Origin: an uncultured Alphaproteobacteria bacterium | GTDB taxonomy: Bacteria > Pseudomonadota > Alphaproteobacteria > HIMB59 > GCA-002718135 | DNA length: 64,000 bases | Assembly (NCBI GenBank): GCA_902577945.1 | Contig: CACHBB010000004.1 | Location: forward strand, 1 to 64,000 | Direction: 5' to 3' | In this document: piece after piece, positions 9,301 through 63,429 of the stretch | How positions within the stretch are numbered: position 1 is the first letter of the stretch | Layout: each line of letters starts with the position of its first letter | Made by a program: the position numbers and the translations under genes | The notes under the pieces: generated by a model | Told to the model about the DNA's origin: nothing | Seen by the model: only the letters and a program-made list of their open reading frames with translations | Database searches by the model: none

Positions 9301-12300
9301 GTTGCACTTGTTGAAAGGGTTACAGTTGGTGCTGATTCATTATCCGTAATCGTTATTGTTGCTGATTGTGATCCACTCTCTGTGGCACTTCCACCAGAGA
9401 CACTATTAATAGCAACTGTTGCTGTTTCATTTCCTTCATAAACACTATCATTGGTTGGTGTAAATAAAACAGTACCTGTAGTTGCTCCTGCACTGATTGT
9501 AATGTCATCGAGATTACCTGACCCATCGGTGTAATCGGTTCCTTCTGTTGCTGTACCACTTGTACTTAAAGCAACAGTGACATCAGCTGTTGTTGCAACA
9601 GACAGAGTTGCTGTTAAAGTTAACGATGAACCAGCATTTTCCGCAATAGTTGTATCACTGACAGTTAATGTAACAGTTGGTGCACTTTCATCCTCTGTTA
9701 TTGTGATTGTAACTGATTGATCACCGTTTTCTGATGCATCTCCACCAGAAACACTACTAATAGCAACTGTTGCTGTTTCATCATCTTCATACACACTGTC
9801 ATTTGTTGGTGTGAAATTTACTGTACCAGTTGTAGATCCAGCACTGATTGTAATATCATCTATTGCTCCACTTCCATCCGTGTAATCAGTTCCTTCTGTT
9901 GCTGTTCCTGACGTTGATAGCGCAACAGTAACATCTTCATCACTTGTGCTAGAGAGAGTTGCGGTTATAGTAAGAGAACTACCGGCATTCTCTGCAATAG
10001 AAGTTGCGCTAACAGTTAAAGTAACACTTCCCGCACTTTCATTATCTTGAATCGTAATCGTAGCTGATTGTGATCCACTCTCTGTTGCACTTCCACCTGA
10101 GACACTACTAATAGCAATCGTAGCCGTTTCATCACCTTCATAAACTGAATCATCAGTTAGTGTGAAGTTAACTGAACCTGTCGTACTTCCTGCGCTAATA
10201 GTGATGTCATCAAGATTGCCAGAACCATCAGTGTAATCAGTTCCTTCTGTTGCTGTACCACTTGTACTTAAAGCAACAGTTACATCTTCATCTGTTGCAC
10301 CAGATAATTTTGCTTCTATTTTTAAAGACGTCGATGAATTATTCTCCCTAATGGATGTACTTGCGTAATCATATCCTAAACTATCTATTTTAATAGATAA
10401 AGTAACAGTAGGCGCTGATTCATTTTCTGTAATAGTTATAGTAACTGCTTGAGTTCCACTCTCACTTGCTTCACCGGTAACGCTACTTATAGCAATTGTA
10501 GCAGTTTCATTTCCTTCATAAACACTATCATCAGTTGGCGTAAAGTTAACTGTACCTGTTGTACTTCCAGCACTAATAGTAATATCATCAACATTGCCAC
10601 TTCCATCGGTATAATCCGTTCCTTCTGTTGCCGTACCAGATGTACCTAATACAACGGTAACATTTTGATCGGTTGCTCCAGATAACGTTGCTGTTAAAGT
10701 TAATGACGTTCCTGCATTTTCTGCAATAGACGTTGCACTAACAGCAAGTGTTACTGTTGGTTCAGATTCATCTTCTGTAATTGTAACGGTAACAGATTGT
10801 GAACCACTTTCACTAGCTCCTCCACCTGAAACGGTATCAATTGCAATGACTGCTGCTTCATCATCCTCATATACCGCATCATTTGTTGGATCAAAGGTTG
10901 CTGTTCCCGTTGTTGAGCCTGCGCTGATAGTAATATCGGAAATTGTTCCGTAATCTGTTCCTTCTGTTGCAGCTCCACTAGTACTTAATGCAACTGTTAC
11001 AGCTTCATCTACTTTTATAGAAAGAGTTGCTGTTAATGTTACGGTTGATCCAGAGTTCTCAGCAATGGATGCAGCACTTCTTGCTAATGTTACTGTTGGT
11101 GCACTTTCATTTTCTGTAATTGTTATTGTTACCGATTGTGATCCACTCTCTGTGGCACTTCCACCAGATACACCATCAATCGAAATGATGGCTGTTTCAT
11201 TTTCTTCATAGACTGGATCTGATGCATCATCAGTTGGGGTGAAACTTACGGTACCAGTTGTACTACCAGCACTAATCGTAATATCATCGAGATTACCAGA
11301 ACCATCCGTGTAATCAGTTCCTTCAGTGGCGGTACCAGCTGTTCCAATAGTAACTGTTACATCCGCAGTCGTAGCTGTAGATAAGGTTGCTGTAATGGTT
11401 AATGATGATCCAGCATTCTCTGCAATTGATGTATCACTTACAGTTAATGTAACTGTTGGAGCACTTTCATCTTCCGAAATTGTAATCGTAACAGATTGCG
11501 TTCCACTCTCTGTGGCACTACCACCAGAGACACTACTAATAGCAACTGTTGCTGTTTCATCACCTTCATACACACTGTCATTGGTTGGTGTAAAGTTAAC
11601 TGTTCCTGTTGTGCTACCAGCACTAATAGTAATATCATCTATATTCCCTGACCCATCGGTGTAATCGGTTCCTTCTGTTGCTGTTCCAGAAGTTGATAAT
11701 GCAACTGTAACATCAGCTGTTGTTGCAACTGATAATGTCGCTGTTAATGTGAGAGATGATCCTGCATTCTCTGCTATACTTGATCCACTAGTACTTAAAG
11801 TTACTGTTGGTGCACTTTCATTTTCTGTAATTGTAATAGTAACAGCTTGTGTACCACTTTCACTTGCTCCACCACCTGACACACCAGACACAGAAATACC
11901 TGCTGTTTCATTTCCTTCATAAACATTATCGTCTGTTGGATCAAAAGTTACAGTACCTGTAGTACTGCCAGCACTAATCGTAATGTCTGATACTGTACCA
12001 AAGTCTGTTCCTTCAGTTCCTGTTCCACCAGTACCATCAATGGATACTGTAACATCTTGGAAGGTGGCAGTTGATACAGTAGCTGTTAAGGTAATTGTAT
12101 CACTAGAATTTTCTGCAATAGATGATGACGCCGCTGCTAAAGTAACGGTTGGTGCACTTTCATCATCCGTTATTGTTATAGTAACTGCTTGCGGTGTACT
12201 ATTTTCAGCAACACCCGTTTTTCCTGAAACGCCATTAATTGATATGGTTGCAGTTTCATTTGACGTTGCATCATAGATACTATCATTAGTTGGGGTAAAT

Positions 12301-60073: not shown

Positions 60074-60775
60074 ATGACTAAATTATTATTTTATATTTTA
60101 CCGTTTTTGTTAGTTTTTCTCCCAAGCTTATGGGTAAACTATGTTTTAAAAAAATTTAATGTAACTTTTTCTGATATGCCATTTACAGGGAAAGAATTAG
60201 GTAAAATAATACTAGAAGAGCATAACATAAATAACGTTAGCATAAATTCAATAAAACAATTAGATCATTATAATCCAATAGATAAAAAAATTCACATTTC
60301 AGAAGATAAAATTAATAAAAAAAGTATTACTAGTATATCTGTAGTTGCACATGAAATTGGTCATGCTATTCAAGATAAGTATAATTATAAACCACTTAAA
60401 TTAAGACAAACTTTAATAGAGAAAACTTCTATCTTACAAAGAATAGGTTCATTTCTTTTAATTATAGGACTTCCATCAATTTTTGCTTTTACTAAAAGTC
60501 CTTTTATTACTTTACTAGCTGGAATTATAATAATGGGATGCCTATCAACGAATGTTTTAATTCATTTAGTAACACTACCTGTTGAATTTGATGCTAGTAA
60601 GAGAGCATTAAAAATTTTAGAAAAATATGTTCCAAAGAAAAATATTAAACAATGTAGAGCGGTATTGACGGCTGCTGCATTTACTTATTTGGCCCAATCA
60701 ATAGTCAGTATATTCAGATTAAAAATTATACTGTTATCTTTTGTTAATATTTTTAAATCACTAATTAGAAGATAA
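60074..60775 (+). CDS. YugP-like zinc metallopeptidase
   Basis: SVVAHEIGHAIQDK (HExxH), TLPVEFDASKRAL, AAAFTYLAQS. Confidence 0.85.
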   Translation: MTKLLFYILPFLLVFLPSLWVNYVLKKFNVTFSDMPFTGKELGKIILEEHNINNVSINSIKQLDHYNPIDKKIHISEDKINKKSITSISVVAHEIGHAIQDKYNYKPLKLRQTLIEKTSILQRIGSFLLIIGLPSIFAFTKSPFITLLAGIIIMGCLSTNVLIHLVTLPVEFDASKRALKILEKYVPKKNIKQCRAVLTAAAFTYLAQSIVSIFRLKIILLSFVNIFKSLIRR

Positions 60776-60816: not shown

Positions 60817-63429
60817 ATGAATATTGCAGAGAGAATTTCATTAGTTTTAATTGATAAAGGATTTAATTTAAGTCCTAATTATAAAACAGAAAAAATTATT
60901 AATGATGCTTCTAAATTAAAAAAAACATCAGAAGAAATATTAATTGCTAAACAGCATGGTATTGCAGATAAGCTTTTTATATTAATTAATGGAGAAGCAG
61001 AATTTACAAAAGATCATAATAATAAATTATATAAATTAGCTACTTTAAGAGGTGTGGGAATTCCTCTTGGTGTTTCTGGACTAAATCCACCAAGCAGATA
61101 TATGGCTGATATTTATGTAAAAGCAAATGCAGAATATATTGAAATTGATCTAAACAAACTAAAAGAAATTGAAAATAGTGACCCCTCTTATGCCAGTGTT
61201 TTTTATTCATATCTTGTGCTTCAATCAATGAATTTAATATGGTCATCAAGAAATTTAAATGATTGTCATTTACAAGATGATATCAGAATGTCTGAAGGAG
61301 TTAAAACGGGTGGAGAAATTATTAATACGAAAAGAATAAAAGATACAGCTTTTCTCGCCTTTCTCAATGATCAAGATTTATTAAAATTATTGAATTATAG
61401 TAGTATAAAACTTTTTTCTGCAAATGAATATATAACTTCTGAAGGACAAATATCAGATGGTATTAATATTCTACTTAAGGGAAAAGTTGATGCATCATTT
61501 AATAGTCACAAAAAAAATATTTTAGAAAAAAATACTAGGACAATTGCAAGGTCTGGAGTTGCTTTGTCACTTTCAGCGGGGTTACATGATATTAAATCTC
61601 CTTATACAATAAAGGCAACAAGAGATACGACTATTATAAAATTCTCAAATGAATTCATTGATAATTTAATTAAAAAAGATCCAGACTTAGCATTAAAATT
61701 TTTAAAACGTCAATTATGGCAATTAGGAAAATATATTCAATCTTCATCAGGTTTAACTACATATCCTGCTAAAGATGAAGCTGAATTGTTCAATTTTCTT
61801 TTAAATGATAATTCTTCAAGAATACCAGTGAATTCTAAACTTTATAATATACCACATCTTCTAAAAAACCATTTAACACATTCATTAGCATTTAATATTA
61901 TTTATGAAGTTGTAGTATCTGGTAATGAAAATGAAAAATCTATTGCCAGTCTTATGATAGACGCGATGTCTGGTTTAGAGAAAAAAAATAGATTTTTTAA
62001 TCAATTAAATAAAATTTATAATAGAGTTGCGACATCTCATGAAGAAATTAATAAAAAAACTTTGCAGAAACTTACAAATGCAGATTTTGTAAAAGCTTTT
62101 GATCAAGTACCTTATGTTATTAAAGGAATGGAAAACTTACCCGAAGAACCAACAAATATTTTTTTTTATAATCATCTAGCGAGCATTGAAGAAAATACAT
62201 TAGCTAATGGACATTCATTCAGTATAGATAGTCATTTTATATCAGCTAAAATCTTGTTTCCAAAATACGGAGATGGAGGTCAAAGGATAGCTAGGTATAG
62301 TAGAAATACAGAATTTTGGCGATATAATTATTATGAAAATTTAGATTATATTTTTGTTCACACACCTGAATCTGATAGACTAGAAGAAACCAATTTAGAA
62401 AAAAAGAAAAGAAAAGAAAAACTATTTGTAGAAACACAAAATATTTTTGATCAAAATAGACCACTTGTTATTGCTCCAGAAGGAACTAGCGAAACTGAAG
62501 ATAATATAACCGTTAACTCTCCAGGGCCTTTGAAGCCTGGTGCATTTTTATTAGCTAATCAACTAGAGCCAGAACCCTTTCTAGTTCCAATTGCTCTAGC
62601 TAATTTTGATCATTCAATATCAAATACAGTTTATTCAGCGATAATCAAAGAACCAATAAAAATAAATGATTATGTTAAAGATATTAAAAACAAAAAAGAA
62701 TTAGAAAAATTTTTAAATAATTATAGAGTAAAATTTAAAAGTTATGTTCAAGAAGCAATTGAATTGGCAAAAAATATTCATAATGATAAAAAAAAATTAG
62801 ATAATGTGGAAACAAATATTAATCTTGTTAGCCCCATTGAAGAGGAATATGAGGCTGATGTAAGAGAATTAGAAATTAATCTTCATAATAAGGAATTAGA
62901 AAACAAAAAAACAATCTTATATGGAAGTTCAACTTTTAAAGATTGGATAAATGCAGATAAGGATTTATCAATTAATAATCTAACAAACCTGGGCTTTGGG
63001 GGTTCAACTTTAGTAGCTTGTAGAAATTATTTCAATAGAATTGTTGTTCCGTACAGTCCTGATACAATGTTATTTTATGCTGGTGATAACGACATTGGTA
63101 GTGGAACTTCTGCTAGTGAATTATTAAGTGAATTTATTTTACTTACTTCTGAAGTTAGTGAGAAAATTCCACATACTAGATGTTTTTTTATTTCAATCAA
63201 ACCGAGTATTTTTAGAAAAGATTATCTAGATATTATTTTAGACGCTAATGAAAAAATAAAAAACGCTATCAATCATTTAGGCCAATGGAAATATATTGAT
63301 TTATGTTCTCCAATGTTAGAAACAGGATATGAAAAATTTTATGGTGATGACCCACTACATATGAACGTCTTAGGTTATAGTTTACTTAGTAAGTTGATAA
63401 GAGATGAATTAGCTGTATTTAACAGTTAG
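60817..63429 (+). CDS. multidomain protein: two cNMP-binding-like domains, PlsC-like acyltransferase, SGNH hydrolase
   Basis: cNMP-like beta-rolls (KLFILINGEAEF; NILLKGKVDASF); NHLASIEE and APEGTS (motifs I and III of acyltransferases); SGNH blocks GSSTFKDW, GFGGST, GDND, DDPLHMNVLGY. Confidence 0.8.
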   Translation: MNIAERISLVLIDKGFNLSPNYKTEKIINDASKLKKTSEEILIAKQHGIADKLFILINGEAEFTKDHNNKLYKLATLRGVGIPLGVSGLNPPSRYMADIYVKANAEYIEIDLNKLKEIENSDPSYASVFYSYLVLQSMNLIWSSRNLNDCHLQDDIRMSEGVKTGGEIINTKRIKDTAFLAFLNDQDLLKLLNYSSIKLFSANEYITSEGQISDGINILLKGKVDASFNSHKKNILEKNTRTIARSGVALSLSAGLHDIKSPYTIKATRDTTIIKFSNEFIDNLIKKDPDLALKFLKRQLWQLGKYIQSSSGLTTYPAKDEAELFNFLLNDNSSRIPVNSKLYNIPHLLKNHLTHSLAFNIIYEVVVSGNENEKSIASLMIDAMSGLEKKNRFFNQLNKIYNRVATSHEEINKKTLQKLTNADFVKAFDQVPYVIKGMENLPEEPTNIFFYNHLASIEENTLANGHSFSIDSHFISAKILFPKYGDGGQRIARYSRNTEFWRYNYYENLDYIFVHTPESDRLEETNLEKKKRKEKLFVETQNIFDQNRPLVIAPEGTSETEDNITVNSPGPLKPGAFLLANQLEPEPFLVPIALANFDHSISNTVYSAIIKEPIKINDYVKDIKNKKELEKFLNNYRVKFKSYVQEAIELAKNIHNDKKKLDNVETNINLVSPIEEEYEADVRELEINLHNKELENKKTILYGSSTFKDWINADKDLSINNLTNLGFGGSTLVACRNYFNRIVVPYSPDTMLFYAGDNDIGSGTSASELLSEFILLTSEVSEKIPHTRCFFISIKPSIFRKDYLDIILDANEKIKNAINHLGQWKYIDLCSPMLETGYEKFYGDDPLHMNVLGYSLLSKLIRDELAVFNS

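Follow-up and report, generated by a model that had tools for sequence, protein, structure and literature searches.

A tripartite gene joining tandem CNB-like domains, a GPAT/PlsC-like acyltransferase domain and an SGNH hydrolase domain in an uncultured HIMB59 alphaproteobacterium

Addition and removal of a given chemical group are usually carried out by two proteins, each with its own control. NTE/PNPLA6, a tandem-CNB phospholipase, is a precedent for combining cyclic-nucleotide-binding (CNB) domains with an esterase in one protein. Among acyltransferases, the squash plastidial enzyme CmGPAT has a four-helix bundle that precedes its acyltransferase domain, while the relay acid of PatA is E200, contributed by block 3 (PMC4792965). 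Trypanosomatid PKA regulatory subunits (6hyq, 6hyi, 6ftf) have tandem CNB domains with an altered cassette and bind nucleosides (PMC10959531).

The window (the whole stretch of DNA analysed, 64,000 nucleotides) contains a gene in which CNB-like, acyltransferase and SGNH domains are joined. The first-pass annotation had described a single 870-aa ORF, which was recovered at exactly 60817-63429 on the plus strand with an ATG start. Its parts and its upstream neighbor are as follows.

60074..60775, plus strand: Zn_peptidase_2 (PF04298) gene, 41 bp upstream of the tripartite gene (locus comparison).
60817..63429, plus strand: the 870-aa tripartite gene, CNB1-CNB2-helical region/acyltransferase-SGNH (ORF, homologue searches).
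60874..61251, plus strand: CNB1, residues ~20-145, with the R94 codon at 61096-61098 and V86 in place of the cassette Glu (AF2 beta-roll plus helices, Foldseek matches to tandem CNB proteins, conservation).
61327..61749, plus strand: CNB2, residues ~171-311, without the cassette Glu and Arg (PF00027 above cut-off, AF2, Foldseek, conservation).
61777..62100, plus strand: helical region, residues ~321-428, before the acyltransferase core (AF2 secondary structure, Foldseek to plastidial GPAT).
62101..62775, plus strand: acyltransferase (LPLAT-type) core, residues ~429-653, with block I N452-H453, the HX4E acid E458, D471, block II R490/R493/E499, block III P554-E555-G556-T557 and block IV P591 (AF2, Foldseek, conservation, relatives over the Pfam cut-off).
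62173..62175, plus strand: H453, predicted catalytic base (88 of 92 sequences; Ser in the other four, alongside D471C).
62227..62229, plus strand: D471, predicted charge-relay acid, at the start of helix 470-484 (invariant with H453, AF2 helix start).
62833..63423, plus strand: SGNH hydrolase, residues ~673-869, with S705, G728/G729, N758, D845 and H848 (PF13472 above cut-off, Foldseek 6xpg, conservation).

The ORF is not a chance reading frame, because the gene was present without internal stops in 56 of the 110 genomes in the family survey and dN/dS was low in every domain (~0.05-0.09 for the acyltransferase and SGNH segments, ~0.05-0.25 for the CNB segments). Purifying selection acts on every domain. 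All 56 carriers belong to one of six genera, that of the window, and share ~71-91% identity; a version at ~55% identity occurs in a different neighborhood in at least 35 further SAR11-like (Pelagibacteraceae-titled) genomes, and distant full-length homologues were found outside the genus. The protein family is rare: among 385 genomes sampled from the class, 5 carry it. The window genome (G000; 1.2 Mb, 82% complete) carries a single copy, its paralogues and cyclases having been sought by family search only. Relatives were not found in phages or viral contigs, and with zero matches there a phage origin was rejected. A plasmid origin was also rejected: the plasmid search gave a full-length match only from Persicobacter, plus stand-alone SGNH.

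Within the genus, the tripartite gene lies in a constant housekeeping set, with metallopeptidase and aminotransferase genes as neighbors. The Zn_peptidase_2 gene adjoins it in every genus locus that reaches far enough upstream, and not in the 55% group; the two are probably not functionally linked, and the association was set aside as genus-level synteny. At 63426-63429 the stop-codon end of the tripartite gene overlaps by 4 bp with that of a convergent GH4 glycosidase gene, which occupies that place only in the closest relatives.

The full-length protein was modeled by AF2 with a mean pLDDT of 83.6, from an alignment built without two plasmid-derived rows, and residues 312-662 alone gave a pLDDT of 86.5 and a pTM of 0.83. 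Structure prediction and Foldseek confirm all four predicted domains, and with them the first-pass view that sensors, acyltransferase and SGNH hydrolase share one chain. In Pfam, cNMP_binding (PF00027, 199-288) and Lipase_GDSL_2 (PF13472, 720-855) exceeded their cut-offs, while Acyltransferase (PF01553, 508-593) scored 18.9 bits, under its cut-off of 23. Of the five relatives scanned that retain the block I His, four exceeded the cut-off for that family, and the scores in relatives were 31.0, 30.9, 39.1 and 38.9, with 14.1 at L161 and 15.1 at L165. The motifs read at first pass were all located: NHLASIEE in block I (N452/H453), APEGTS in block III (P554-S558) and the four SGNH blocks GSST (703), GFGG (726), GDND (756) and DPLH (845). 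The protein is a new arrangement of known domain families; as first surmised, no characterized protein of this domain order, and no paper on a cNMP/CNB-acyltransferase-SGNH architecture, appeared in the open-access literature searched, which omits most subscription journals.

Our preferred reading, whose probability we place a little short of even, is that the tripartite protein works in the cytosol as a bifunctional acyl-ester enzyme under ligand control, in which O-acyl transfer is coupled to ester hydrolysis. The GPAT/PlsC-like domain would take an acyl group from acyl-ACP or acyl-CoA and attach it to a hydroxyl acceptor, the SGNH triad (S705/D845/H848) would hydrolyze an acyl ester of the same pool, and the two CNB domains, in a tandem arrangement like that of PKA/PKG regulatory subunits, would gate one or both activities on ligand binding. 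If transfer and hydrolysis act on one pool, the protein would set the acylation level of one product, with acyl cycling or Lands-cycle-like remodeling as the outcome. A hydrophobicity scan of the protein suggested neither a membrane-like segment nor a signal peptide (maximum 19-residue Kyte-Doolittle mean 1.05).

For residues 312-662, Foldseek ranked plastidial GPAT first (8ia1/1k30/1iuq; E=2.4e-6), followed by PlsC (5kym; 2.3e-5) and PatA (6.9e-5), with moderate TM-scores of 0.42 to GPAT and 0.60 to PlsC. The GPAT alignment covers 373-395 columns and spans the pre-core helices, at that TM-score of 0.42 and an rmsd of ~12 Å, and the helical region at residues 321-428 may correspond to the four-helix bundle of the plastidial enzyme. 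A PDB sequence search with the acyltransferase profile returned PlsC alone, as a weak match. As modeled, the domain is at least as close to soluble plastidial GPAT as to PlsC, which modifies the earlier label “PlsC-type”.

Across 92 distinct sequences, N452, P554, E555, G556, T565, P569 and P591 are fully invariant, and H453, D471, R490 and E499 are conserved in 88. H453 would serve as the base, with D471 (or E458) as the relay acid. D471 lies 18 residues after H453, in the first turn of the helix following block I, and appears the more likely relay acid because it is invariant with H453, whereas the HX4 acid varies (acidic, as E or D, in the lineages of the window and the 55% group, and P/T/A/M/K in other His-keeping rows). 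Profile comparison with the organism's own PlsC, used to place the relay acid, gave a low-probability match. In that PlsC (L175, G000 C15), block I reads KHQSAFE, not NHX4D. If the relay acid is indeed displaced, the acyltransferase superfamily would gain another active-site layout in addition to the one in PatA. Block III occurs as EGTS, EGQS, EGNT or EGED and never with the Arg of EGTR, which speaks against plain G3P or LPA as the acceptor; because this phosphate-site Arg is missing, we propose a different acceptor, which is probably the hydroxyl of a polyol, sugar or lipid.

The other four sequences, the G277/G381/G904 clade, carry H453S, D471C, R490W and E499A together with a shortened block II, while their SGNH residues are intact. 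Since this clade keeps its SGNH domain with a dead-looking acyltransferase, both reactions are not always needed, and it is the strongest evidence against a strict requirement for both. The same substitutions would fit an acyltransferase reduced to a ligand-binding or scaffold remnant, leaving a CNB-gated SGNH esterase as the sole enzyme. However, the window and other lineages keep all acyltransferase residues, the domain is among the most constrained, and three genomes have the acyltransferase without SGNH, and we consider such a remnant improbable. As for the hydrolase itself, S705, G728/G729, N758, D845 and H848 (blocks I, II, III and V) are kept in all rows with an SGNH domain, and the C-terminus matched the sialate O-acetylesterase 6xpg in Foldseek (TMt 0.83, rmsd 2.6).

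The gating step of the bifunctional reading depends on the CNB domains. The N-terminal half of the protein matched tandem CNB proteins in Foldseek (PKG and PKA-R, including the nucleoside-binding trypanosome PKA-R); CNB1 of the window protein was missed by Pfam, but several relatives score CNB twice and the AF2 model shows both domains. The CNB1 motif is G85-x-S-x-L...P-x-R94, in which R94 does not vary in any of 90 sequences and Glu never follows the cassette Gly. CNB2 also lacks the cassette Glu, leaving it absent from both domains throughout the alignment, and its Arg is missing in most rows, including the window protein. The first-pass statement that the CNB domains lack the Arg motif thus holds for CNB2 and fails for CNB1. 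A family search for PF00211 cyclases found none in the window genome or in its nearest carriers (G021, G031, G070 and G092), whereas a PF00211 class III cyclase is present in 30 of 61 genus genomes and many carriers of 72%-identity versions do have cyclases. The class III cyclases of the genus are mostly of two types, ~430 and ~600 aa; the subclade of the window yielded none. Cyclase absence is weak evidence because genus genomes are incomplete (82% for that of the window). The gating ligand is probably something other than cAMP or cGMP, on evidence that is weak but consistent.

Alternatively, the CNB domains may bind cAMP, cGMP or c-di-GMP even though the Glu is missing, and the protein would then be an acyltransferase/esterase under cyclic-nucleotide control. 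The invariance of R94 and the class III cyclases seen in roughly half of the genus genomes sampled are consistent with such binding, and diguanylate-cyclase-type genes near two relatives are a weak lead to c-di-GMP: in G549, an FHA-GGDEF diguanylate cyclase gene (L163 8987-10012) lies 71 bp upstream of the CNB-CNB-acyltransferase gene on the same strand, and the acyltransferase homologue of G552 has a GGDEF-EAL gene nearby. We judge cyclic-nucleotide binding quite improbable, given the loss of the cassette Glu throughout and of the CNB2 Arg in most rows, and a window subclade that retains the protein yet has no PF00211 match. Nucleotide sensing could also suggest a Pycsar/CBASS-type anti-phage effector, with a CNB sensor and a lipase killing module: the CNB at the N-terminus of L161 is similar to that of PycTIR effectors (1.6e-10), and esterase effector domains are known among defense systems. 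This reading was rejected as very improbable, since the PADLOC match is limited to the CNB, no PF00211 cyclase turned up in the window genome, and the constant housekeeping neighbors in the genus, the lack of relatives among the phages and viral contigs searched, and purifying selection throughout all point elsewhere.

The esterase partners of related acyltransferases bear on the coupling of the two reactions. A fused SGNH domain occurs in 13 of 17 tree rows; it is present in the window genus, the 55% group, G277/G381/G904 and G677/G662. In Persicobacter (Bacteroidota; L126), the CNB-CNB-acyltransferase gene (655 aa) runs to position 9851, and a separate SGNH gene (209 aa) begins 1 bp downstream, at 9853. 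Three genomes (G549, G552 and G343) have the acyltransferase without SGNH, and at all three loci there is an unrelated esterase, AXE1: in G549 it adjoins the acyltransferase gene in convergent orientation, in G343 it adjoins the upstream CNB1 ORF divergently, and in G552 it lies ~2.6 kb from the acyltransferase with a PhoD-like gene between. The CNB1 and CNB2-acyltransferase ORFs of G343 share a frame and are separated by a single TGA followed immediately by ATG (L166 3559-3561), representing either a split gene or an interrupted one. Because the three AXE1 proteins (mutually ~45% identical) and their acyltransferase proteins (39-44%) show similar identities, the pair probably traveled together; the association comprises three genomes, two of them from one family (G549 and G552), with G343 in another class. 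No AXE1 was found near the SGNH-type loci examined, and no SGNH near the AXE1-type loci. In the CNB2-acyltransferase tree, the fused-SGNH, Persicobacter and AXE1 rows separate with two changes, the minimum, with long branches making the deep part uncertain.

This genomic association suggests a functional pairing of the acyltransferase with an esterase, whether SGNH or AXE1. Gene order elsewhere (SGNH adjacent in Persicobacter, AXE1 nearby in the three SGNH-less genomes) lends independent support to the original idea that acyl addition and removal are coupled; the description “self-contained” does not hold for the family, as its modules also occur split and, in one clade, an intact SGNH domain stands beside a dead-looking acyltransferase. 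A broader generalization, possible but rather unlikely in our estimation, is a patchily distributed bacterial acyl-switch family in which the soluble acyltransferase is GPAT-like, has its relay acid displaced (H-X17-D) and non-cyclic-nucleotide CNB gating, and is always accompanied by an exchangeable esterase (fused SGNH, adjacent SGNH or AXE1), with one signal setting acylation and deacylation of one product.

The two activities could instead work in the same direction, as a one-protein Lands cycle in which the SGNH domain strips an acyl chain from a (lyso)phospholipid that is damaged or unwanted, and the acyltransferase then puts one back. A deacylase and a reacylase in a single chain would suit this remodeling, as would the NTE/PNPLA6 precedent and a PAP2 superfamily (lipid-phosphatase-like) gene upstream of the acyltransferase/SGNH pair in Persicobacter (L126 6481-7341). 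On the other hand, the SGNH fold matches listed are sugar O-acetylesterases, the alternative partner AXE1 belongs to a short-acyl esterase family, block III is without the Arg used by LPA acyltransferases, and Pfam gave no patatin match in the window protein; a Lands cycle therefore seems unlikely, if worth considering. Under the preferred reading of a ligand-gated bifunctional enzyme, a single chain carrying both activities beneath tandem sensors would be a compact acylation switch, in ocean bacteria whose streamlined genomes keep few regulators. Because the acyltransferase is retained while its esterase partner is swapped, the family offers a direct way of searching for the shared substrate.

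The closest known systems compare with the protein as follows. SGNH/GDSL esterases of the GSS/GFGGS/GDND type share all SGNH blocks and the same fold (~31% identity to an Agrobacterium plasmid protein), but they are stand-alone proteins, whereas the window SGNH forms the C-terminal end of a multidomain chain that has no signal peptide. Trypanosomatid PKA regulatory subunits keep the ribose-binding Glu that is absent from the window CNB domains. NTE/PNPLA6 likewise places several degenerate CNB domains ahead of a lipid-ester hydrolase, although that hydrolase is patatin rather than SGNH, the acyltransferase is absent and the protein is membrane-anchored. Mycobacterium PatA shares the LPLAT fold and sets a precedent for a relay acid other than the HX4D Asp; its relay position differs, and it is without sensors and esterase. 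Compared with PlsC/LPLAT proteins (PF01553; Thermotoga PlsC, 5kym), blocks I, III (PEGT) and IV are shared, the window lineage keeps HX4[D/E] and several relatives exceed the Pfam cut-off, while the window protein falls below it, has PEGTS for PEGTR and is without the membrane segment, and the HX4 acid varies across the family. Plastidial GPAT (squash CmGPAT, 1k30/1iuq; Myrmecia, 8ia1) differs in having 4 residues between the His and the invariant Asp versus 17 in the window protein, which is also without the block III Arg, is fused to CNB and SGNH domains and shares 13-14% identity; it is the best fold match, with an alignment that takes in the preceding helices, and is soluble, as the window protein is predicted to be, with the same block I His and block III/IV arrangement.
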